Origin: an uncultured Bacteroidia bacterium
GTDB taxonomy: Bacteria > Bacteroidota > Bacteroidia > Bacteroidales > Prolixibacteraceae
Direction of reading: 5' to 3'
Length of the DNA stretch: 51,103 nt
NCBI GenBank assembly: GCA_903918045.1
Contig: CAIXCY010000068.1
Coordinates: 1-51,103 of the forward strand
Part shown: in pieces, positions 19,406-31,110 of the stretch
Layout of the letters: every line of letters begins with the position of its first letter
How positions within the stretch are numbered: the first letter of the stretch is position 1
Program-made: the position numbers and the translations under genes
Notes under the pieces: model-generated
What the model saw: only the letters and a program-made list of their open reading frames with translations
Told to the model about the DNA's origin: nothing
The model's database searches: none

Positions 19406-22198
19406 ATGATGGGATTGAAATTTATTTATTTGTTGCTTATTTGTTCTTTTTGGTTTACATATTCTAGCCAAGGAGCCCCAGATGAGACTTACCAGACTGT
19501 GATGACCAGGTATGAGCAATTTGTGAAAACTGGTCGTTTTAAGGAAGCGGTAAGCTGTCTGGACGCATTTCTTATTCCCCCGAACCACTTATCTTCCAAA
19601 GAAAAGCTTGTAATAAACAATAATCTGGGTATTCTACACAAAAATCTTGGAGAATACGAGGATGCCCTGAAGCATTATAATGTTGCTGAATCAATTTATT
19701 TTGCGGATAATATTCCAAATCACTCTTTTATTGTGAGTATATATGGCAATATAGCGAATATTTACTCGATAAAAGGGGATCTGGGTAAGGCGCTGGATTA
19801 TTGTGAAAAGGCAATTCGGTCTATCTCTGAGACTGATTGGGATGAGCTTCAAAAACAAAAGTATACTTCAGATTTATACCTTAATTCCGGAATTATAGAT
19901 TATCAGCTAAATAAATTCAATCAGGCTTTAGCGGCATTTAAAACCAGCTTTTTTCTGAAAGACAAGTATAACCTGCCGGGGAAAGATATTTTATATAAGC
20001 AAATTGCGAATACATACGCTAAAATGGGCAATAATCCGATGGCGGATAAATTCTTCAATTTGAGTATCAGTCAGTCGAATGGCGAAAATAATCCTTATGT
20101 AATCAATCAAATTAATATTTATATTGAATATGGTCATTTTCTGTTATCAGGTAAAGATTTTTCTAAGGCATTGACATCTATCAGGAAGGCATTGGAATTA
20201 AGTTTGACCTACGGTAAAGACAATCAGGTGACATCAAATTGTTATCAGTTATTGGGCGATTATTACAGGATAATAAAAGATTATCAGAGAGCATTAAGCT
20301 ACTATCAGCAAGCATTAATCTTCGGTTCTCAAAATTTTAAAGATCAAAATTTTGAAGCGAACCCACCCCCAGAGGAGATTTCGGTAAATCTTTGGCAAAT
20401 GCGGATTTTTCAATTAAAAGCTGAGGTACTTGGGATGTTGGCTGAAAAGGAAACGGATAAAAATAAAATAATCAAGGATCTTACACTGAGCTTTAATACG
20501 AATAGCCTTGTTATTAATATGACAAATCAAATTCGTGTAGATTATCATGACGGAGAAACCAGAATGAATTTCAATCAAAAACAAAAGAATGTTTTTGATC
20601 AATCAGTAGAAACTGCCCTAAAACTTTATAATCTTACTTCTGAAAAGAGATTTTTACAGCTTGCCTATCAAAGTTGCCAGCAATCCAAGGCGAACGAGTT
20701 GAAATATGAAATTTTGAGGAACCAGGGGTTTTCAAATAAGGAAATACCGGATTCTCTTCAAAACAAAGAGAGGGAACTTCAGAATAGTGTGGCAGCCTAC
20801 GGGGCTCTTATCCGAACAGAATCGGCATACCTAAGACCAGATACGGTAAAAATTGCCTATTGGAAAGATTTGCAATTTAAATTAAACAGGGCCCTCGAGA
20901 AAAATATTGAGACCATTGAGCAAGAATTTCCCAGATTCACAGATAAGTTAAAAAAGGGGAAAATTGTTGGGATTGAAACAATCCAGGAAAATTTAAAACC
21001 TGATAGGACTTTAATTGAATACAACTTTTCGGAGAGGGATAGTCATGGTGAGCGGAAGTTATATGAATTTGTAATTACTCCCAATGATTTGGTGTGTCAC
21101 ACCGAATTTATTGATAGCACTTTATCTGCTGATTTATCCGGACTAAAAGGACACTTTGCAAGGGGAATAGGTGAAGTCAACGGGGTTGATAATTATAATG
21201 CTATGAATCACCGACTATTTAAAGCTTATTCTGTATTAATTCAACCTATTGAAAAATATTTTTCAGGAAAACAACTAATAATTATTCCTGACGAGGAGCT
21301 CTCCTTGCTGCCCTTTGATGCTTTCTTAACCTCCTGGAGCAGGAAAACAACAATTAATTACGCAGAGTTAGCCTATTTAATTAAGGATTATGCAATATCG
21401 TACGGTTACAGCACCAACACTCTTTGGAATAATGAAGTTAAACCTGAATATTTTCCAACCGTTAAAGGGTATGCGCCTCTTTATACTGCCATTGGAAATG
21501 GAAGTGGCTACAATTCAATAAAAAATAATGGGTTAGAGATAAAGAGCATTTTGAAACATTTTAGAGGGAATTTATTTAAAGCTGATCAGGCTACCGTTTC
21601 CAATTTCAGATTAAATCTGTTTAATGGAGCAATACTTCACCTGGCTATGCATGCAGAACTGGATACCACAATAGCAGGTTCTTCTAGTTTAGTATTTACC
21701 CCTGGCGAACACAGCAATGACATTTATCATTTATACAATTATGAAATTGGACAAATGAACATCAAATCCCCGATGGTCGTCTTAAGCGCATGTAATACCG
21801 GGAATGGGAAGCTATATAATGGAGAAGGTGTTTTAAGCCTTTCACGAAGTTTTGTTTTGGCAGGTGTTTCATCGGTTGTTGAAACGCTTTGGCCTGTTGA
21901 AGATATGGCAGGTTCAAAAATAATGGGGGATTTTTATAGGTATCTTGGAGAAGGAAAACCTAGAAATACTGCTTTAAGACAGGCAAAGCTCGATTATATT
22001 AACAGTACATCACCTTCATTTGTAAATCCGGAATATTGGGCTGCATATTCCTTACTTGGCGAGGTAACTCCAATTAAAAAGTTTTGGTGGAAAGGGCCGT
22101 GGCTGATTTTTGCTATAACCCTTTCTATTTTGGTTTTTAGTGCAATAAGAATTTATTGGTTTAGACTTTTAAGGATTTTGAAAGCTTTATTCTTATAA
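19406..22198 (+). CDS. TPR-CHAT protease, exported and membrane-anchored
   Basis: A 930-residue protein. An N-terminal signal sequence (residues about 4-23, ending near SSQGA) is followed by about six tetratricopeptide repeats (about 50-320), a helical linker, and a C-terminal CHAT caspase-like domain (about 600-885). The catalytic dyad is intact: H749 in LHLAMHAELD and C796 in VVLSACNTGNGK, with the family motif SLSRSFVLAGVSSVVETLWP. A membrane helix near residues 897-915 is followed by a short basic tail. I therefore place TPR and CHAT in the periplasm. TPR-CHAT proteins act as regulated proteases (separase relatives; Csx29 of type III-E CRISPR). The gene converges on and overlaps the anti-sigma-like gene by 46 bases. 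The substrate is unknown. Confidence 0.9.
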   Translation: MMGLKFIYLLLICSFWFTYSSQGAPDETYQTVMTRYEQFVKTGRFKEAVSCLDAFLIPPNHLSSKEKLVINNNLGILHKNLGEYEDALKHYNVAESIYFADNIPNHSFIVSIYGNIANIYSIKGDLGKALDYCEKAIRSISETDWDELQKQKYTSDLYLNSGIIDYQLNKFNQALAAFKTSFFLKDKYNLPGKDILYKQIANTYAKMGNNPMADKFFNLSISQSNGENNPYVINQINIYIEYGHFLLSGKDFSKALTSIRKALELSLTYGKDNQVTSNCYQLLGDYYRIIKDYQRALSYYQQALIFGSQNFKDQNFEANPPPEEISVNLWQMRIFQLKAEVLGMLAEKETDKNKIIKDLTLSFNTNSLVINMTNQIRVDYHDGETRMNFNQKQKNVFDQSVETALKLYNLTSEKRFLQLAYQSCQQSKANELKYEILRNQGFSNKEIPDSLQNKERELQNSVAAYGALIRTESAYLRPDTVKIAYWKDLQFKLNRALEKNIETIEQEFPRFTDKLKKGKIVGIETIQENLKPDRTLIEYNFSERDSHGERKLYEFVITPNDLVCHTEFIDSTLSADLSGLKGHFARGIGEVNGVDNYNAMNHRLFKAYSVLIQPIEKYFSGKQLIIIPDEELSLLPFDAFLTSWSRKTTINYAELAYLIKDYAISYGYSTNTLWNNEVKPEYFPTVKGYAPLYTAIGNGSGYNSIKNNGLEIKSILKHFRGNLFKADQATVSNFRLNLFNGAILHLAMHAELDTTIAGSSSLVFTPGEHSNDIYHLYNYEIGQMNIKSPMVVLSACNTGNGKLYNGEGVLSLSRSFVLAGVSSVVETLWPVEDMAGSKIMGDFYRYLGEGKPRNTALRQAKLDYINSTSPSFVNPEYWAAYSLLGEVTPIKKFWWKGPWLIFAITLSILVFSAIRIYWFRLLRILKALFL

Positions 22199-23166
22199 AT
22201 GCCTTCAGATTCCGATACTGTTGCCATCAGCAGGCGTGCGTTGGATAAATCTCCGGTTTTAAAATAACATAATCCCAGATACCACTGTGCTTCAGGAACA
22301 AACTTATTTTTAAGAATAAGAAGATTGCTGAAATAGGGGATTGCCGCTTTAAAATTATTCTTTCCCATATGATTAAGACCAGAATATAAGAGGAGTTCAG
22401 GCAGTTCTGAATCAATCTTGCGTAAATTGTTAAATGCAAGTTCTGCCTTATTATAATCCTTGGATAAATAGTAATCCACACCTTCCTGCAATTTACTGCT
22501 AACCTCCTGAGCGCTTCCTCTGAATTGAAAAGAGTTTGACTCCAGGGGCTCATAATAATTTTTATAAACGCTATCACCAGAAAAACCAGGTGTGAGGGCT
22601 TTGAACAGTAAAAGGGACAGAATAAATACTGCTGCTGCTGCCTGAAAAATAATCTTCCTGGATATATGGCGACTAACGGCTGGTATTTGAATATCTGATT
22701 CGAGCGAAATTCCATTCTTGCTGATATAATCGAAGATGTGCTGAGCTGAAACGTTGCCTTGAATAGCTGGTTTACGAAGTTCGAAGTCCCTTACCCACTC
22801 TTCTGCGAGATCGTCAATACCTGAGAGAACCATTTCAACTTCAGCTTTTGCGATCTTTTTTCTGATTTCAACCTCTGTTTCAATGTTAATTGTCTTATTC
22901 TCCATCCTAATATTTTTCATATTGCTATTATTCAGATAGTTATCAATATCTTGCAGGGCAAGAATTTCAGCTTTTATTAGATTAGGATCACTTTCAATAC
23001 CTTCCAGAAATAAATTTTTTTTCATAACCTTGTCAAGCTTCTCCTGAAACAGGAATTCCTTTCTTAACTCCTCAGAGAGAAAAAAATTTCGGTTAAACTC
23101 CTCCCGTTCAGGAATGGTCATCTCTCCTGATTGGTATTTGAGTATTAGGTCATTATAGTTATTCAT
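22153..23166 (-). CDS. Single-pass anti-sigma-like protein with periplasmic TPR domain
   Basis: A 337-residue protein. Residues 1-50 have the look of the cytoplasmic N-terminus of Bacteroidota anti-sigma factors (LILKYQSGEMTIPEREEFNR, then LSEELRKEF). Residues 51-170 are charged, 171-191 form one membrane helix, and 215-335 contain three or four TPR-like units (EGVDYYLSKDYNKAELAF, HMGKNNFKAAIPYFSN, WYLGLCYFKTGDLSNARLLM). Its start overlaps the end of the sigma gene by 8 bases, so translation is probably coupled. Sigma binding is inferred from this order and the N-terminus; no zinc-binding HCC motif is seen. The periplasmic TPR half would face the CHAT protease encoded on the opposite strand. 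Confidence 0.8.
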   Translation of the reverse strand: MNNYNDLILKYQSGEMTIPEREEFNRNFFLSEELRKEFLFQEKLDKVMKKNLFLEGIESDPNLIKAEILALQDIDNYLNNSNMKNIRMENKTINIETEVEIRKKIAKAEVEMVLSGIDDLAEEWVRDFELRKPAIQGNVSAQHIFDYISKNGISLESDIQIPAVSRHISRKIIFQAAAAVFILSLLLFKALTPGFSGDSVYKNYYEPLESNSFQFRGSAQEVSSKLQEGVDYYLSKDYNKAELAFNNLRKIDSELPELLLYSGLNHMGKNNFKAAIPYFSNLLILKNKFVPEAQWYLGLCYFKTGDLSNARLLMATVSESEGIYKNKAFKILKSLNQ

Positions 23167-23761
23167 AAAATTTATTAATAGGTTTCTTTATATTTAGGTT
23201 TCGCTCCAGTTCGGTATAATCCTTATGACTAATGATCCTGTTCTTAAGTTCTTTCATACATTCACTTTTCTTTTTCCTGACGTACCCATATGTATATCCC
23301 AATTTCCTTGCGATCTCCGTAGGGGATATCTCCATCCAGTACATTTTTAGAATTTTCTGAGATACTTCATCCATTTCATCGAAGCATTGTCTGAAAATAT
23401 TCTCATAAAAAACACGATCTACCGTTTCAGTGAAATCATGATCCTGATGTCCAGAGGAACGGCGTAACTCATAATTCTTTGCAGCTTTCTGCTTGTCCAA
23501 GGCCATAAGCCACAGATTTTTGCAGATAGCAAATAAATAGGTTGATAATGTCCCGTGAAGGACCAAATCGTTATTGTAAACTTTTTCGATAATGATATAC
23601 AACGCATCCTGAAAAATATCTTTCGCATCCTCATCATTACCATTATTTTTCGATATAAAATAGCGGATTACCGGAAGAAATTCCCTAACCAGGTATTTTA
23701 CAGCAAATGATTCACCGGTTTTTAAGCCCTGAATGATTTCCTGATCGGTATATTTTCTCAT
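23159..23761 (-). CDS. Sigma-70 family (ECF-type) RNA polymerase sigma factor
   Basis: A 200-residue ECF-type sigma factor. Region 2 spans about 15-90 (DAKDIFQDALYIIIEKVYNN, TLSTYLFAICKNLWL) and region 4 about 130-180 (SQKILKMYWMEISPTEIARK, LGYTYGYVRKKKSECMKEL) with its helix-turn-helix. It is the first gene of a two-gene unit with the anti-sigma-like protein. Its own upstream region lacks a clean TAnnTTTG element, so autoregulation through a different promoter is possible. It is the probable transcription output of the CHAT module. Confidence 0.93.
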   Translation of the reverse strand: MRKYTDQEIIQGLKTGESFAVKYLVREFLPVIRYFISKNNGNDEDAKDIFQDALYIIIEKVYNNDLVLHGTLSTYLFAICKNLWLMALDKQKAAKNYELRRSSGHQDHDFTETVDRVFYENIFRQCFDEMDEVSQKILKMYWMEISPTEIARKLGYTYGYVRKKKSECMKELKNRIISHKDYTELERNLNIKKPINKFYE

Positions 23762-23843
23762 TTATAACAAATATTCAGAGTTTTTGCTGACGTCTGTAGT
23801 GCAAGGAGGCACAAAATCAAAAGTCAAATCTATGCAATCCAGA

Positions 23844-23867
23844 CTAAATATTTTAAAAAATATTTAG
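23844..23867. repeat. AT-rich palindrome upstream of the sigma gene
   Basis: A perfect 10-bp inverted repeat (23844-23853 with 23858-23867, arm CTAAATATTT, 4-nt loop) lies 83 bases upstream of the sigma start codon. The 493 bases from 23762 to the first trp leader peptide contain no credible gene; they hold this palindrome and presumably the divergent promoters of the sigma gene and the trp operon. Confidence 0.5.
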
Positions 23868-24203
23868 TTAAAAGATTGTGTAAATATATGCAAAACTTTA
23901 AAATTTGTTTACAAAATCACCCCTCAGTAAAATAAAAATATCTCTTTTCAGAGTAATTCTGATAATAAGTAAAGCTTACCGGTCAAATTGACAGATTCAA
24001 TTCATGAATCAAAGAACGAACTGATATAACCCAAGACCTAAACTGCATAACTTTTGTCCAATGACTTTCAATTAAGACGATTCTAATAATCTATTATTCA
24101 GTTTAAATCTTTACTCTCTTAGTTAATATCACTGCAAAATTGTTACCTGTTTTTCTCAATTATTTTTTAAAAAACTCACTTTTTAAACAAAAACTATTTT
24201 TTT

Positions 24204-24235
24204 TTTGCTCAACTGATAATTTTTGTATTTCTTTG
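24204..24235 (+). promoter_or_regulatory. Candidate trp operon promoter
   Basis: TTTG at 24204-24207 could be a -33 element. About 20 bases downstream, TTTCTTTG (24228-24235) is a near match to the -7 element, lacking the TA. Transcription would start at about 24239, some 15 nt before the first leader peptide. Confidence 0.35.
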
Positions 24236-24254
24236 TCGCAGATAAAATTTAAAG

Positions 24255-24308
24255 ATGACAAGATTTAAATCAATATGGCTTTGGTGGGGCAACACTTTCC
24301 TCTGTTGA
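24255..24308 (+). CDS. trpL: trp leader peptide 1
   Basis: A 17-residue open frame, MTRFKSIWLWWGNTFLC, with three Trp codons (24276, 24282, 24285) close together. It starts just after the inferred promoter and is followed immediately by mutually exclusive RNA stems. This is the layout of a translation-coupled attenuator: a ribosome starved of charged tRNA-Trp stalls at the Trp codons. The left arm of an 11-bp 1:2 stem (24271-24281 with 24313-24323) covers the first Trp codon. Confidence 0.85.
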   Translation: MTRFKSIWLWWGNTFLC

Positions 24309-24378
24309 GGTGAAGCCATATTGTATTTTTAAAATATACATCCGGCTTACCTTTTACAGGTAAGCCGGATTTTTTATT
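24309..24378 (+). terminator. trp attenuator 1 (antiterminator and terminator)
   Basis: The terminator is a perfect 12-bp stem (24340-24351 with 24359-24370, arm ATCCGGCTTACC, 7-nt loop) followed by TTTTTATTT. The alternative antiterminator pairs GGTgAAGCC (24309-24317) with GGCTTACC (24344-24351): eight pairs with one bulged G. The leader-1 stop codon ends at 24308, so a ribosome finishing translation masks the 5' antiterminator arm and allows termination. A ribosome stalled on the Trp codons leaves it free. Confidence 0.88.
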
Positions 24379-24412
24379 TGAAGCTGAAATTATTAAAATA
24401 ATACATTAAGAT

Positions 24413-24475
24413 ATGAAAAATATTTCCCGAAATAATTGGACCTGGCGTTGGCAGGATTACTTTTTTCAAACGTGA
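24413..24475 (+). CDS. trp leader peptide 2
   Basis: A second 20-residue leader frame downstream of the first terminator, starting MKNISRNN and then WTWRW, with three Trp codons at 24437, 24443 and 24449. It differs in sequence from leader 1 apart from the Trp clustering, so it is not a simple recent duplication. Like leader 1, it is directly followed by an attenuator. Confidence 0.85.
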   Translation: MKNISRNNWTWRWQDYFFQT

Positions 24476-24478
24476 ATG

Positions 24479-24542
24479 GATAACCATCTTGTACCCCTAT
24501 GGAAGGGATAACGGTTTATCGGATCACGATAAGCCGTTTTTT
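24479..24542 (+). terminator. trp attenuator 2 (antiterminator and terminator)
   Basis: The terminator is an 11-bp stem with one G-U pair (24511-24521 with 24527-24537) and a 5-nt loop, followed by six T residues (24537-24542). The antiterminator candidate is GATAACC (24479-24485) with GGTTTATC (24513-24520): seven pairs with one bulge. The leader-2 stop codon (24473-24475) lies 3 nt before that arm, so a terminating ribosome would cover it. I see no strong protecting 1:2 stem here, unlike attenuator 1. Confidence 0.82.
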
Positions 24543-24570
24543 GTTTAAAATATTCAACTTAAATTTTGCC

Positions 24571-25980
24571 ATGAAGCAGTATAACTTTACAACCAATGTT
24601 CGGGAGATCTTAGCTGACACAGTTACACCGGTTAGTGTTTACCTTAAGATGCGTGACATTTTCCCAAATGCCCTTTTACTCGAAAGTTCAGATCATCATA
24701 GTCTTGAAAACAGCTACTCATTTATTTGTCTCAAACCTGAGGCCTCGCTGGAGGTAGCTCAATTTAAAGTCCTGCGGAAATACCCGGATGGGAAAACCGA
24801 AACAGGAATAATCGATCGTAATGGGCAGTTAGCCGATGAGATGAAGTCATTTTTTGGGTGCTTTAAATCGGATACTCCGTTGAAGGAGCTACCAGCCAAT
24901 GGATTTTTTGGCTATGTCAGTTACGATGGTGTGCAGTATTTTGAAACAATTAAGTTTAATCATCCTGTTAACCCTGCCTATGAAATTCCTGAAGTTCATT
25001 ATGCTTTTTATCATTATATCATAGCAATAAACCATTTTCAAAACCGCATCCAGCTGATTGAAAACCTATTTGACGGAGAGAATTCGTCGTTGATTATGAT
25101 AGAGGATCTGTTGTCCAGCCGCAATTTTGCTACTTTTTCGTTTGATACAGTAAACGGTGAAAGTTCGAATATAACGGATGAGGCATTCAAGCAGATGGTT
25201 ACAAAGGGGAAAGAGCACTGTTTTCGTGGCGATGTCTTTCAGATTGTTTTATCGCGACAGTTTGCGCAGCAGTTTTTAGGTGATGATTTTAATGTTTACC
25301 GTGCCTTACGTTCAATTAATCCGTCGCCTTATTTATTTTATTTTGATTATGGGAATTATAAGATATTCGGATCCTCACCTGAGGCACAACTACAGATAAA
25401 TCAACAAAACGTATCGATCAATCCGATTGCAGGAACCTTTCGGAGAACGGGTAATGATGAACAGGATCGTCTTTTGGCTGAAAAGCTTTCAAAAGATCCG
25501 AAGGAGAATGCAGAACATGTAATGCTTGTGGATCTTGCACGCAATGATCTGAGCCGCAATGCTACAGATGTTAAGGTAGAGCTTTTCAGGGAGGTTCAAT
25601 TCTATTCGCATGTGATCCATCTGGTATCGAAAGTTACAGGAAAACTTCCTGAAGGGTCAAATCCTGTAAGTGTAATGGGGGATTCTTTTCCGGCGGGTAC
25701 CCTCTCAGGAGCACCAAAATTTAAGGCAATGGAACTGATTGACAAATATGAAAATCAAAATCGCGGCTATTATGGCGGGTGTATTGGTTTCATTGGTTTC
25801 GACGATTCTTTTAATCATGCAATTATGATCCGCTCTTTTCTGAGCAAGAACAATACGCTGTTTTATCAGGCAGGGGCCGGCATTGTTGCCGCTTCGGATG
25901 AGGAGAATGAATTACAGGAGGTCGTAAATAAACTTGCGGCACTGAAGAAAGCGATCATTATGGCCCAGGGGATTAAATAA
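24571..25980 (+). CDS. trpE: Anthranilate synthase component I
   Basis: A 469-residue enzyme making anthranilate from chorismate with TrpG. I chose the ATG at 24571 (MKQYNFTTNVREILADTVTP): the longer frame back to 24499 begins inside attenuator 2. The N-terminal Trp-feedback segment includes LLESSDHHSLENSYSFI. The catalytic C-terminal half has the chorismate-family motifs PSPYLFYFDYG, FGSSPEAQL, NPIAGTFRRTG, LVDLARNDLSR and AGTLSGAPKFKAMELID. It is the first gene of trpEGDCFBA. Confidence 0.97.
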   Translation: MKQYNFTTNVREILADTVTPVSVYLKMRDIFPNALLLESSDHHSLENSYSFICLKPEASLEVAQFKVLRKYPDGKTETGIIDRNGQLADEMKSFFGCFKSDTPLKELPANGFFGYVSYDGVQYFETIKFNHPVNPAYEIPEVHYAFYHYIIAINHFQNRIQLIENLFDGENSSLIMIEDLLSSRNFATFSFDTVNGESSNITDEAFKQMVTKGKEHCFRGDVFQIVLSRQFAQQFLGDDFNVYRALRSINPSPYLFYFDYGNYKIFGSSPEAQLQINQQNVSINPIAGTFRRTGNDEQDRLLAEKLSKDPKENAEHVMLVDLARNDLSRNATDVKVELFREVQFYSHVIHLVSKVTGKLPEGSNPVSVMGDSFPAGTLSGAPKFKAMELIDKYENQNRGYYGGCIGFIGFDDSFNHAIMIRSFLSKNNTLFYQAGAGIVAASDEENELQEVVNKLAALKKAIIMAQGIK

Positions 25981-26015
25981 TCGCGGTAAATTAAATTATT
26001 AAAAAATAAGTATCC

Positions 26016-26582
26016 ATGAAAATATTAGTAATTGATAATTATGACTCTTTTACCTATAACCTGGTCCATGCTTTAAAAAAGTTTGAAGGGGTAACCGTAG
26101 AGGTAAAGCGGAACGATGATCTTGCCGAAGGTGAGCCGGATCAATATGATAAGATTGTCTTTTCCCCGGGTCCCGGACTTCCTGAAGAGGCAGGGCAAAT
26201 GCCATCAGTTATTCGCAACTATGCTGGCAAGAAGCCGATGCTTGGAGTTTGTCTTGGTCATCAGGCAATAGGAGAATCTTTTGGCGGGAGGTTAGAAAAT
26301 ATGAATGACGTGCTTCACGGAATTGCAACTCCAATCACAGTGGTTGCAAAGAGCTATCTTTTCGAATCTTTACCCGAAACTTTTGATGCAGGACGTTACC
26401 ACTCATGGATCGTTGAGCGGGAATCGCTTCCTGCAGTTCTTGAGATTACCAGTTTGGATCAGGAAGGGAGAATCATGTCATTCCAGCACCGGGAATTCGA
26501 TATTCAGGGTGTTCAGTTTCATCCTGAATCTATTCTGACACCTATCGGGGAGAAAATACTCGAAAACTGGGTAAAACACTAA
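26016..26582 (+). CDS. trpG: Anthranilate synthase component II (glutamine amidotransferase)
   Basis: A 188-residue class I amidotransferase that feeds ammonia to TrpE. The nucleophile is in LGVCLGHQAIGE and the His-Glu pair in VQFHPESI; the N-terminal VIDNYDSFTYNLVHAL is typical. It is not fused to TrpD. It could be shared with folate synthesis (PabA role), but its place in the operon argues for TrpG. Confidence 0.96.
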   Translation: MKILVIDNYDSFTYNLVHALKKFEGVTVEVKRNDDLAEGEPDQYDKIVFSPGPGLPEEAGQMPSVIRNYAGKKPMLGVCLGHQAIGESFGGRLENMNDVLHGIATPITVVAKSYLFESLPETFDAGRYHSWIVERESLPAVLEITSLDQEGRIMSFQHREFDIQGVQFHPESILTPIGEKILENWVKH

Positions 26583-26659
26583 GAATATTTAATAGAAATA
26601 AGGGAATTGGAATACAGAATTATTTCAACCTTTTTCCATCCTAATCAATACTATAAAAT

Positions 26660-27652
26660 ATGAGAGAGATTCTGAACTACCTTTTTGAATACAAAAGGTT
26701 AACCAAACAGGAAGCTGAAGATATCCTGACAGAGATTACAGCCGGCAAACTCTCTGATGCAGAGATTGCAGCATTCATAACTGTTTTCAATATGCGAACA
26801 ATCAGCATCGACGAACTTGAAGGTTTTCGCGATGCATTGTTAAAAACAGCGCTTCCTGTTGACTTAACAGAGTTTAATACGATTGATTTGTGCGGCACCG
26901 GAGGAGATGGAAAAGATACCTTTAATATTTCAACCTTATCGGCATTTGTAGTCGCCGGAGCAGGTGCAACTGTTGCCAAACATGGTAACTATGCTGCATC
27001 GTCCGGATGTGGATCATCCAATGTTATGGAACACCTTGGGTACAAATTCTCGAATAGTCATGAGCGGTTACGCACCGAGCTGGATCAGTGCGGAATCACA
27101 TTTCTCCATGCCCCGCTGTTCAACCCTGCAATGAAAAATGTGGCACAGGTTCGTCGTGCATTGAGGCTAAAAACCTTTTTTAACATGCTTGGACCCATGG
27201 TTAACCCAGGCAGGCCACAAAATCAGGTTGTCGGAGTTTTCAGTCTTGAGCTTGCCAGAATGTATAATTATCTCTACCAAAAGAGTAATGTCAACTATTG
27301 TATTATACACAGTCTGGATGGGTATGACGAAATATCTTTGACCGGAGATTTCAAAGTGCTTTCCAATAAATCGGACCAGATTTTATCCCCATCCTCGCTT
27401 GGAATGGATGTTACAAAACCTGGGGAGCTGGTGGGATCCGGAGATGTCCCGGGCACTGCCGCTATATTCACGGATGTTTTGGAAGGGAGGGGAACGATTC
27501 CTCAAAATTCTGTAGTCTTATCAAATGCAGCAATGGCGCTTAAAACTTATTTCCCTGAAAAAGGGATTGAGCAGTGTGTCGAGGATGCCAGATCTTCCCT
27601 CATGGGTGGTAAGGCATTAAAAATATTTACAAAATTAATCTCCCTGCAATGA
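26660..27652 (+). CDS. trpD: Anthranilate phosphoribosyltransferase
   Basis: A 330-residue enzyme transferring phosphoribose from PRPP to anthranilate. The PRPP-binding loop CGTGGDGKDTFNISTLSAFV, the KHGNYAASSGCGSSNVME segment and NMLGPMVNP are all present. Its stop overlaps the trpC start by 4 bases (ATGA), so the two are translationally coupled. Confidence 0.97.
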   Translation: MREILNYLFEYKRLTKQEAEDILTEITAGKLSDAEIAAFITVFNMRTISIDELEGFRDALLKTALPVDLTEFNTIDLCGTGGDGKDTFNISTLSAFVVAGAGATVAKHGNYAASSGCGSSNVMEHLGYKFSNSHERLRTELDQCGITFLHAPLFNPAMKNVAQVRRALRLKTFFNMLGPMVNPGRPQNQVVGVFSLELARMYNYLYQKSNVNYCIIHSLDGYDEISLTGDFKVLSNKSDQILSPSSLGMDVTKPGELVGSGDVPGTAAIFTDVLEGRGTIPQNSVVLSNAAMALKTYFPEKGIEQCVEDARSSLMGGKALKIFTKLISLQ

Positions 27653-28440
27653 GGACCATTCTTGATGAAATCGTAGACAACCGGCGATTCGAGGTTGCAG
27701 GTGCGAAAGCGGTACTTTCATTGGCTGAACTAAAATCAAAAACCGATTTTAGTGTCGTTAGGAATTCGTTGGCAGCCAGATTGACTGCTCCGGGGAACAA
27801 TGGAATTATTGCAGAATTTAAAAGACGATCACCGTCAAAGGGGGTAATTAATGATCGGGTTTTTCCCGAAATTGTTACAAAAGGATATGCAGATGCTGGT
27901 GTTTGCGGAATATCTGTGCTTACAGAATTTCGTTATTTTGGTGGTGCCAACGCTGATTTTATTGTAGCCCGGACAGCAAATCCTTTAACTCCTTTGCTCA
28001 GGAAAGATTTTATGGTTGATGAATATCAGCTCTATGAATCGAGGATGCTAAATGCAGACGTGATTTTGTTGATCGCCGCCGTTTTGGAGAAGGAGGAGAT
28101 TTCAGGGTTTACGGCTATCGCTCATGAACTTGGAATGGAAGTTTTGCTTGAACTGCATGATGAGAGTGAAATTGAAAAAATAGATTTGAAAGTAGATCTG
28201 ATCGGCATAAATAACCGAAATCTGAAGGATTTTAGAGTGGATATGGACCGGTCTCTTAATTTACTGGATCAACTTCCTGCTAAATCGGTGAAAATATCGG
28301 AGAGTGGATTAAGTGATCCTGATACAGTTGACTTTTTAAGGGATAGAGGTTTCCTAGGATTCCTTATGGGTGAAAATTTCATGAAAACAGAAGACCCCGC
28401 AAAGGCATGTTTTGATTTTATTTCAAGATTAAGGTATTAG
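27649..28440 (+). CDS. trpC: Indole-3-glycerol phosphate synthase
   Basis: A 263-residue TIM-barrel enzyme closing the indole ring. Key motifs are IIAEFKRRSPSKG (catalytic Lys and phosphate region), LLRKDFMVDEYQ, ADVILLIAAVL, LLELHDESE, IGINNRNLKDF and ISESGL. It is not fused to TrpF as in E. coli; trpF follows separately 14 bases downstream. Confidence 0.97.
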   Translation: MRTILDEIVDNRRFEVAGAKAVLSLAELKSKTDFSVVRNSLAARLTAPGNNGIIAEFKRRSPSKGVINDRVFPEIVTKGYADAGVCGISVLTEFRYFGGANADFIVARTANPLTPLLRKDFMVDEYQLYESRMLNADVILLIAAVLEKEEISGFTAIAHELGMEVLLELHDESEIEKIDLKVDLIGINNRNLKDFRVDMDRSLNLLDQLPAKSVKISESGLSDPDTVDFLRDRGFLGFLMGENFMKTEDPAKACFDFISRLRY

Positions 28441-28454
28441 GAGGACAGGCTGAT

Positions 28455-29093
28455 ATGGATCTAAAAATTAAAGTTTGCGGAATGCGCCAACCTTTCAATA
28501 TCAGGGAGCTTGTTAAACTTAATCCTGATTATATTGGATTTATCTTCTATCCCAAATCAAAGCGGTTCATCGGAGAGGTAATTCCGGAAGAGATTCATTC
28601 GCTTATCCCTGGCTCAATACAAAAAGTTGGAGTTTTTGTGAATGAGCCGTTTGAAAGTCTGGTTGAAAAATGGGTCGAATCTAAACTTGATATAATCCAG
28701 CTTCACGGAGGTGAACTTCCTGATTATTGTAAAAGATTAAAGGTTCTCAATATTCCAGTGATCAAGGCGTTTAGTATCACCTCTGATTTTGATTTTAATT
28801 CAGTTTACCCGTTTGAAAAGGTTTGTGATTACTTCCTTTTTGATTCGGCCACTGAATTAAGAGGTGGATCAGGATTAAAATTCAATTGGGATATCTTGAA
28901 TCAATACAAAGGAACCAGGCCATTTTTCCTCAGTGGAGGGATTAAGTGTACCGATATTGATGCCATCAAAAGCATAATGCATAATAAATTGTATGCTGTT
29001 GATGTGAACAGTGGTTTTGAAATTGAAGCCGGATTAAAGGATCTATTAAAACTGGCACCATTTATTTACGATTTTAAAAATTTTAAAGTATAA
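28455..29093 (+). CDS. trpF: Phosphoribosylanthranilate isomerase
   Basis: A 212-residue TIM-barrel isomerase. It has the general base in IKVCGMRQP (Cys), the motifs [18 protein letters not shown] and IIQLHGGE, the Asp in YFLFDSAT, and FFLSGGI for phosphate binding. It lies between trpC and trpB with very short gaps. Confidence 0.96.
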
Positions 29094-29097
29094 AAAA

Positions 29098-30285
29098 ATG
29101 AATTATCAATCTAATGATAAAGGGTATTACGGAACATTCGGTGGTGCTTTTATTCCCGAGATGATGCAGCAGAATATCAGCCAGTTACAAAGTTGTTATT
29201 TGCAGATTATCGAAAGTGATTCATTTAAGGATGAATTTAAAAAGTTACTTTCCGATTATGCAGGGAGGCCTTCACCGCTTTATTATTCCGATCGTCTTTC
29301 GGATCGTTATCAGGCGCACATTTATTTGAAAAGGGAAGATCTGAATCATACCGGGTCGCATAAGATAAACAATACGATTGGTCAGATACTTTTGGCGAAA
29401 AGACTTGGGAAGACCAGGATTATTGCAGAAACGGGAGCCGGGCAGCATGGGGTTGCTACAGCTACGGTTTGTGCAAGAGCCGGGTTAGAGTGCATTGTTT
29501 ATATGGGGGCTGTGGATGTGGCGCGTCAATCACCTAATGTAGAGAAGATGAAAATGCTTGGTGCGGAGGTACGGGCGGTTAATAGCGGAAGTAAAACGCT
29601 GAAGGATGCCACGAATGAGGCAATTCGCGACTGGATCAATAATCCCGTTGATACCCATTATATTATAGGCTCGGTTGTTGGTCCTCATCCATATCCAGAT
29701 ATGGTCGCACGGTTTCAGTCGGTTATCAGCGAAGAGATAAGGATTCAGCTTAAGGAAAAAACAGGTCGCGAAACACCCGATTATGTGATTGCCTGTGTTG
29801 GAGGCGGGAGCAATGCTGCTGGTGCTTTCTACCATTTTTTGGATAATCCGGAAGTTCAGCTGATCGCCGTTGAGGCGGGTGGGAAAGGTGTCGATACCGG
29901 TGAATCTGCTGCCACAACCCAACTGGGACGCCCCGGTATTCTGCATGGCAGTCGCAGTCTGCTGATGCAGACCGCAGATGGTCAGGTAATTGAACCTTAT
30001 TCGATTTCTGCGGGTCTTGATTATCCCGGGATCGGACCGATGCATGCTAATCTTTTTTTAACCAAAAGGGGAAGATTTCTAAGTGCAACCGATGAGGAGG
30101 CTCTAAAGGCGGCATTATATCTTTCACAAAAAGAGGGGATTATACCGGCGTTGGAATCTGCTCATGCCTTAGCGGCACTTGAGATGATTGAGTTCAAACC
30201 CGAAGATGTTGTAGTGGTTAATGTTTCAGGGCGAGGGGACAAGGATATGGAGACTTTTCTGAAATATTTTCAATCAGTTAAATAA
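29098..30285 (+). CDS. trpB: Tryptophan synthase beta chain
   Basis: A 395-residue PLP enzyme joining indole and serine. The PLP lysine is in [11 protein letters not shown], the phosphate loop is [10 protein letters not shown], and the substrate region is [13 protein letters not shown]. These mark a TrpB1-type enzyme that works with TrpA. It starts 4 bases after the trpF stop. Confidence 0.97.
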
Positions 30286-30336
30286 TTATTTTTATAATAA
30301 ACAGTTATTAAGCATAAGTTTTGCAAAATTAACGTC

Positions 30337-31110
30337 ATGGAAAATCGGATTACATCGCTCTTTAAAAGAAAAGAGAGGAATATATTGTCAATCTATTTCA
30401 CCGCCGGATACCCGGCATTAAAGGATACTCTTACCATTATTAAAGAACTTGAGAAAAATGGGGCAGATTTGATTGAGATCGGGATGCCCTTTTCCGATCC
30501 TGTAGCTGATGGTCCGGTAATTCAGCACAGTTCTGAAATAGCCCTGGAGAATGGTATGACGATCAATCTTTTATTTGAACAATTGAAGGAGATCCGGAAA
30601 ACCGTTTCAATCCCGTTAATACTGATGGGCTATCTGAATCCTGTTATGCAGTATGGAGTTGAGGAATTTTGTACTAAATGCCATGAAACAGGGATTGACG
30701 GAACGATCATTCCCGATCTTCCTCTGGAGGTCTATGAGGAGGAATATAAAGCGATTTTTGAAAAACATTTATTGTCAAATATCTTTTTAATCACCCCTCA
30801 AACCCCCGAAGAGCGGATCATCAAAATTGACTCCCTCTCTACTGGTTTTATTTATATGGTCTCCTCTTCATCCACTACCGGCGTGAAAGAATCGGAGAAT
30901 AATGAACAGATCAGTTATTTTGAGAGAATCCAAACAATGAATCTGCGTTCCGGCCGGTTGATTGGATTTGGAATCTCTGATAAGTCCTCTTTTTTAAGGG
31001 CTTGCAATTATGCCAATGGGGCTATTATTGGAAGTGCATTTGTCACCGGAATGGCCGGAGATTCAAAAATCGAAGATAAAGTGAGCGCTTTTATGCAAAA
31101 GTTTTTTTAA
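30337..31110 (+). CDS. trpA: Tryptophan synthase alpha chain
   Basis: A 257-residue TIM-barrel lyase that releases indole from indole-3-glycerol phosphate. The catalytic acids are in IEIGMPFSDPVADGP (Glu) and GTIIPDLPLE (Asp); YMVSSSSTTG and GFGISDKSS bind phosphate. It is the last gene of the operon. I see no strong terminator before the S46 peptidase gene, which has its own promoter element. Confidence 0.97.
   Translation: MENRITSLFKRKERNILSIYFTAGYPALKDTLTIIKELEKNGADLIEIGMPFSDPVADGPVIQHSSEIALENGMTINLLFEQLKEIRKTVSIPLILMGYLNPVMQYGVEEFCTKCHETGIDGTIIPDLPLEVYEEEYKAIFEKHLLSNIFLITPQTPEERIIKIDSLSTGFIYMVSSSSTTGVKESENNEQISYFERIQTMNLRSGRLIGFGISDKSSFLRACNYANGAIIGSAFVTGMAGDSKIEDKVSAFMQKFF

Follow-up and report, generated by a model that had tools for sequence, protein, structure and literature searches.

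Results

Two Trp-rich leaders and two terminators upstream of trpE

The window, a stretch of 51,103 nucleotides from a genome of 5.4 Mb in 281 contigs, carries the operon trpEGDCFBA (24571 to 31110), with Pfam matches for all 7 genes. Within the 320 bases 5' of trpE lie two Trp-rich short open reading frames (ORFs) and two intrinsic-type terminators (Table 1). An earlier note, made from the sequence alone, had described this region as two complete trp attenuators in series, leader-peptide attenuation being a textbook mechanism. The coordinates and peptides it gave for both ORFs proved exact, and a terminator scan of 23500-25500 recovered, as it had proposed, a terminator after each leader: T1 with 13 pairs and a T run, and T2 with 12 pairs and a T run. 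The scan returned 4 terminator-like sites compared to a mean of 1.0 (sd 1.0) in shuffles, the remaining 2 being T1 on the opposite strand and a site inside trpE. Each leader ORF contains three Trp codons, which in ORF 1 occupy 24276-24278, 24282-24284 and 24285-24287. On both strands of the window, these two are the sole ATG ORFs of 8-30 amino acids with three Trp within six residues; among 5000 mononucleotide shuffles of 24241-24570, one such ORF arose in 2 and two arose in none. Leader 1 folds far below shuffles (z of -6.5 and -7.1), leader 2 with its ORF folds more weakly (z about -2), and the stretch 3' of the ORF 2 stop codon together with T2 gives a z of -3.4. The spacing from the U run of T1 to the ATG of ORF 2 is about 37 nt. 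Upstream of the trp leader, divergent on the - strand, are a sigma-70-like gene (23159-23761) and a gene for a TPR protein (22153-23166).

Table 1. Features of the trp leader, in window positions.
Feature	Position	Strand	Basis or remark
Promoter-like TTG-N18-TATTTCTTTG	24205-24235	+	Consensus match, just upstream of leader 1
Leader ORF 1, MTRFKSIWLWWGNTFLC	24255-24308	+	Codons TGG CTT TGG TGG
Conserved RNA element	24267-24328	+	Predicted fold; covariance model R1
P1	24271-24281 with 24313-24323; extension 24267-24270 with 24325-24328	+	Predicted fold
Element core UGGUGGGG	24282-24289	+	Predicted fold; nearly invariant
P2	24299-24302 with 24307-24310	+	Predicted apical hairpin; sequence and loop variable
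Antiterminator strand of attenuator 1 (predicted), AGGUGAAGCC	24308-24317	+	Begins in ORF 1 stop codon; partner 24344-24352
Terminator T1	Hairpin 24340-24370, with U run to 24375	+	Terminator scan
Leader ORF 2, MKNISRNNWTWRWQDYFFQT	24413-24475	+	Codons TGG ACC TGG CGT TGG
Candidate antiterminator strand of attenuator 2, ACGUGA	24470-24475	+	Overlaps ORF 2 stop codon
Terminator T2	Hairpin 24510-24538, with U run to 24542	+	Terminator scan
trpE, first gene of trpEGDCFBA	24571-25980	+	ATG at 24571; Pfam match

Both units recur across the family

The comparison centred on the GTDB family of the window, presumably Prolixibacteraceae and referred to here as the family. Loci of trpE were drawn from three sources: a scan of relatives' contigs, from which the best 80 out of 384 were used; a search of 140 family genomes with a sequence pattern, which matched in 70, one of them by chance (L127); and a covariance-model search of those same 140 genomes. 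Among the best 80 of the 384 relatives, the nearest to the window are Bacteroidia MAGs, including ones named Mariniphaga, and further loci come from Draconibacterium, Maribellus and other Prolixibacteraceae. The RNA element around leader 1, described below, was readable together with trpE in 97 distinct leaders (98 loci including the duplicate pair L039/L158); L098, L112 and L152 have no trpE match and were left out of this set.

ORF 1 and T1 were both present in 80 of the 97 distinct leaders and both missing from 17, and no leader had only one of them. At all 80 T1-bearing loci, every ATG codon in the 48 nt preceding the first UGG was in frame, and the ORF 1 stop codon preceded the 3' arm of P1. 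Leader 2 was found at 97 of the 98 element loci, in each case with T2 (97/97). When relatives' leaders were compared in this way, a check that the earlier note had suggested, both complete units (leader 1 with T1, leader 2 with T2) were found in 79 of the 80 leaders with ORF 1 and T1, which is 79 of the 97 distinct leaders. Cultured bacteria with both attenuators include Draconibacterium orientale (L030) and Maribellus maritimus (L019). The exception, L014 (2640-3010), keeps leader 1 and T1, but its leader 2 has neither the ATG nor the Trp run and its T2 looks weak. L014 is the reverse of the 17 ORF-less leaders, which retain leader 2 without ORF 1 and T1, and together these cases indicate that the two leaders are separable.

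The listed trpE loci without the element, from several Bacteroidota groups, each carry at least one Trp-rich short ORF, mostly one with a WWW-like run. Leader 2 would thus appear to be the general attenuator in these Bacteroidota, to which the family seems to have added attenuator 1. With at least one Trp-rich short ORF at all listed trpE loci across several groups, the earlier note's view that ribosome-coupled attenuation is itself notable in Bacteroidota did not hold up. A convincing element was absent from 39 of the 140 family genomes, some of these incomplete, which makes the system look dispensable.

Predicted antiterminator pairings differ between the two attenuators

The earlier note had proposed, for each leader, a segment directly after the stop codon that competes for the terminator. 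For attenuator 1 this stood: the predicted antiterminator strand pairs with the 5' arm of T1, and 24297-24355 has a folding energy of -14.6 kcal/mol. Since the AAGCC of this strand also belongs to P1, the window would hold the classical exclusive set of 1:2, 2:3 and 3:4 pairings. The antiterminator covaries with T1, with strands from the same locus pairing at -13.1 kcal/mol compared to -10.3 (sd 0.27) for permuted partners; no permutation was as low among 2000 (66 distinct combinations) or among 5000 within the 49 of CCG type, counts that are not probabilities because the loci are related by descent.

For attenuator 2, the proposed pairing can be drawn in the window (GATAACC with GGTTTATC, -6.4 kcal/mol) and finds no support in the relatives. 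The segment after the stop codon paired with the 5' arm of T2 at -5.2 for own partners and -5.4 for permuted ones, with 1891 of 2000 permutations as low (85 combinations), and a longer version of the segment gave 937 of 2000 (92 loci); the textbook antiterminator was rejected on these tests. The compensatory changes that the earlier note had suggested looking for are thus seen at T1 and not in leader 2 as it had implied, where another pairing is supported instead. The ACGUGA strand at the ORF 2 stop codon is complementary to UCACG in the loop and 3' arm of T2 (24524-24528). Tested against the T2 loop and 3' arm, own pairs reached -10.16 vs. -9.53 at 92 element loci and -9.57 vs. -8.25 at 39 loci without the element, with 0 of 2000 permutations as good in either set; the test scored the best duplex anywhere in the segment, and its assignment to CGUGA comes from printed examples rather than position by position. 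Within the 17 ORF-less leaders, 37 of 2000 permutations were as low, and in 12 leaders of the window clade, which hardly vary, the pairing gave no signal (1808 of 2000). CGUGA with the T2 loop and 3' arm is therefore a supported candidate for the antiterminator of attenuator 2. Trp leaders of these Bacteroidota (e.g. L042, L070 and L019) have an antiterminator that seems to capture the terminator loop and 3' arm, CGUGA with UCACG.

A conserved hairpin is predicted around leader 1

ORF 1 is nested in a predicted hairpin in which P1 pairs CAAUAUGGCU with AGCCAUAUUG and the 5' core ends in UGGUGGGG; the P1 extension is usually AAAUAC with GUAUUU or similar, around one bulge. A covariance model, R1, was built from 44 chosen elements; of the 140 family genomes, it matched 101 with E <= 4.6e-5 and 104 with E <= 0.1, where 3 (G032, G119 and G121) were unconvincing when read. 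In the family genomes a convincing element occurs at one place per genome, and it lies 5' of trpE in the 97 distinct leaders read. Apparent second copies (L208, L209, L210), weak sole matches (L173, L174, L175) and the chance pattern match looked by eye like hairpins of another kind, coding regions or unrelated sequence. A convincing element is missing from several family genera, for example from one (g3) in 8 of 8 genomes.

Pairing statistics for P1 were taken from 57 sequences of the 58 loci searched, L165 falling below threshold. P1 was paired in 97.5% of cells; in an alignment that had been fitted to P1, 22 cells carried double changes vs. 5.1 in shuffles, and the covariation score was reached by 0 of 500 shuffles. 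Two further measures do not stand out, namely pairs with double changes (3 vs. 2.0, with 32 of 500 shuffles as high) and further pair types (11 vs. 11.2, 432 of 500). The changes fall mainly in the extension, the inner pairs being hardly variable. Of 57 distinct inner segments, 39 folded into P2 better than 95% of their shuffles.

Beyond the family, an order sample of 393 genomes gave 5 matches at E <= 0.01, comprising 3 family members and 2 matches that on reading were due to chance (L156, L157), and a class sample of 395 genomes gave 1 at E <= 0.001, the window itself; both samples were searched with stricter filters, under which weak matches are lost. Weak matches in outgroup trpE leaders were also discarded; of six inspected as alignments, 3 placed the element over the UGG run of leader 2 with a badly paired P1 and 3 were other hairpins near the terminator. 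No Rfam family matched the window at its gathering score, and the sub-threshold lists for 24200-24570 and for four loci (L138, L132, L030, L011) contained nothing convincing; the T-box family appeared in neither. Pairing of the core with the genome's own tRNA-Trp, judged by eye, gave nothing compelling.

The hairpin persists without ORF 1 and T1

In the 17 distinct leaders that have neither ORF 1 nor T1, L138 among them, the hairpin is kept. There the element runs straight into leader 2, with the first ATG 18-26 nt 3' of P1. At 5 of 13 such loci examined, a stop codon lies no more than 6 codons 5' of the first UGG and the interval contains no ATG, GTG or TTG, and at two (L155, L161) the Trp frame is lost in the core while the hairpin is kept. 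Across 12 ORF-less loci, the 5' half and core of the element were identical in every pair, compared to 39% identity (down to 24%) at four-fold sites of trpE, silent sites that are saturated in this comparison. The corresponding values were 100% vs. 35% for the window clade (11 loci) and 86% vs. 36% for the other ORF-less group (4 loci). The pattern search favours identical cores; the model search added no divergent copies in the genera concerned, in which both searches alike found the element in 4 of 4 (g15), 6 of 7 (g21) and 1 of 1 (g8) genomes. On a TrpE tree made by a quick method from 106 rows, with both members of the duplicate pair included, the ORF-less state requires at least three changes and takes in a deep branch; the direction of change is not inferable from this tree, and two loci (L142, L161) sit on long branches of unsure position.

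Because the 5' half and core stay fixed in the ORF-less loci while trpE four-fold sites diverge, the constraint, judged from these alignments, is on the RNA (or DNA) of the element itself. RNA seems the better reading, since compensatory changes, some of them to G-U pairs, maintain both P2 and the extension of P1. The element thus probably has a function independent of ORF 1 and T1. An arrest peptide was rejected as the cause of leader 1 conservation: the bases are fixed without the ORF, and the hairpin is kept in the two frame-broken loci. A non-AUG start (AUA) is possible in those ORF-less loci that keep the frame; at L155 and L161 it could not yield the Trp run, and T1 is absent from all ORF-less loci. 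The earlier note's leader 1 attenuator accordingly stands as a Trp-codon ORF with T1 in 80 of the 97 leaders and falls short in the other 17, in which the retained hairpin points to something more. This conservation exceeds what an attenuator needs and may alter the picture of attenuator 1.

One such revision would make attenuator 1 a riboswitch or protein-controlled switch, with P1, the core and P2 as sensor, T1 as expression platform and ORF 1 incidental or a folding modulator. It would account for sequence conservation that greatly exceeds the demands of coding or pairing, whether or not ORF 1 is present, for the bases that P2 and P1 share with the T1 antiterminator strand, and for the occurrence of one convincing element per genome, 5' of trpE in the leaders read. 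We nevertheless consider it unlikely. The three Trp codons of ORF 1 are in frame, and in all 80 leaders with T1 it is accompanied by an in-frame ATG and an in-frame stop before the P1 3' arm, with ORF 1 and T1 both gone in 17 of 17; the absence of Rfam matches at gathering score in the window, and of convincing ones in the sub-threshold lists, also counts against it.

A second alternative is trans action by the T1-terminated RNA or by the ORF 1 peptide, with the conservation reflecting this role. The attenuated trp leader RNA of Sinorhizobium reportedly acts in this way. Attenuation at T1 would set free an RNA of about 135 nt here, and the core UGGUGGGG is nearly invariant. For the Sinorhizobium trp leader peptide, peTrpL, trans action is reported in the part of PMC7298713 drawn on here. 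This alternative appears quite improbable against the 17 leaders without T1 and ORF 1, in which there would be neither the short RNA nor the peptide. Our preferred reading is a ribosome-coupled attenuator 1 whose hairpin probably has a further role.

Transcription probably runs through both terminators

The promoter-like motif TTG-N18-TATTTCTTTG, which we take to be the Bacteroidota promoter type, would place the start of transcription near 24241. A loose form was present upstream of the element at 58 of 98 loci (at 30-32 nt in 47), compared to 3.9 in shuffles, and a stricter form at 16 of 98 compared to 1.0. Between the element and leader 2, the loose form occurred at 1 of 70 loci (0.6 in shuffles) and the strict form at 0 of 70. 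A motif that lies upstream and hardly ever between, together with the short gap from the T1 U run to the ORF 2 ATG, argues that polymerase passes both terminators. Along with the family-wide conservation of both units, this bears out the earlier note's description of two complete attenuators in series. The least probable alternative, that T1 terminates an independent small RNA encoded upstream and a promoter between T1 and leader 2 serves the trp operon, with no series, can draw on the strong terminator-like hairpin and the roughly 37 nt that follow it, but conflicts with the motif counts (1/70 vs. 58/98) and would require a promoter that, within 37 nt, overlaps T1.

Discussion

Since both units are conserved, ORF 1 and T1 are present or absent jointly, and antiterminators covary with their terminators, we think it likely that two serial ribosome-coupled attenuators control trpEGDCFBA and that the leader 1 hairpin is in addition a separately functional RNA element. 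A single transcript would start just 5' of leader 1. When charged tRNA-Trp is plentiful, the ribosome would reach the ORF 1 stop codon and cover the antiterminator strand, and T1 would form. When Trp is short, it would stall on the UGG codons and block P1, the strand at 24308-24317 would pair with the T1 5' arm, and polymerase would continue; P1 and P2 would serve as the 1:2 hairpin of attenuator 1. Polymerase would then face a second decision at leader 2, whose stop-codon CGUGA is able to sequester the T2 loop and 3' arm: a ribosome at the ORF 2 stop would cover CGUGA, and stalling on the Trp codons would expose it. Full-length mRNA would require passage of both T1 and T2. From this layout we infer stalling, termination, a Trp response and an output given by the product of two readthrough probabilities, and the earlier note's expectation that two leaders multiply and sharpen the Trp response would hold on the same footing.

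At the 5' end of the trp mRNA, the element most likely binds a factor, which could be a Trp-related ligand, a tRNA, a protein or RNA polymerase. Without ORF 1 it might sense a ligand or a tRNA, offer a binding site for a protein or modify polymerase. Its sequence and structure are conserved independently of the coding frame and beside pathway genes, as expected of a structured cis-acting RNA, and there is a fair chance that it represents a new RNA class. Our fuller proposal is tentative, and we would not put it above the competing possibilities taken together: the leader 1 hairpin would be a family-specific, trp-dedicated cis-regulatory RNA sensing a trp-related signal or protein, its UGG-UGG core would be both aptamer and stall codons (recruited or relic), and the attenuator on top would have been gained or lost on at least three occasions along the TrpE tree. 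With bases more constant than the protein regulated, independent of the ORF, the element points to an unrecognised trp-linked RNA sensor or factor site in Bacteroidota.

The arrangement can be compared with three known systems. First, the E. coli trp attenuator (RF00513, Trp_leader), whose mechanism is summarised in the part of PMC3641672 used here, likewise has a short ORF with Trp codons, a strand common to the 1:2 hairpin and the 2:3 antiterminator, and an intrinsic terminator before trpE. Unlike it, the present leader has two units in series, leader 1 lies inside a nearly invariant hairpin, and in leader 2 the antiterminator that finds support pairs with the loop and 3' arm of the terminator instead of its 5' arm. 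With RF00513, leader 1 of the window scored 17.4 bits and L030 26.3 bits, below the gathering score of 41, so neither is a member by that model. Second, Salmonella mgtCBR, as far as the same part of PMC3641672 describes it, has tandem attenuators in which a single leader contains two short ORFs and transcription elongation is the step affected; its signals are ATP and proline and its stem-loops are unlike intrinsic terminators, whereas in the present case Trp codons occur in both leaders, each of which is followed by an intrinsic-type terminator. Third, tandem riboswitches for the same ligand, an arrangement held to give a more digital response in the part of PMC9481103 consulted, also combine two complete sensors and expression platforms for one signal, from which a steeper response is expected. 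In those riboswitches RNA binds the ligand, whereas here the sensing would be ribosome stalling on Trp codons. That review (PMC9481103) nowhere uses the terms 'leader peptide' or 'attenuat'. Among the matches listed from the open-access literature, none concerned leader-peptide attenuators arranged in series for a single amino acid, or an RNA motif like the leader 1 element.

The possible gains from stacking are a steeper response, a lower leak and a wider range. The 79 leaders with both units, and the relatives without one or the other, form a natural set in which the value of stacking could be assessed.

At three loci (L027, L172 and L106), extra genes lie between T1 and leader 2, which is moved 683-698 nt downstream. 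In L027 (292-916) and L172 (744-1368) the inserted genes have Pfam matches to a nucleotidyltransferase and a HepT-like protein, and the inserted ORF of L106, judged by eye, is similarly nucleotidyltransferase-like. These inserted genes would be controlled by attenuator 1 alone.
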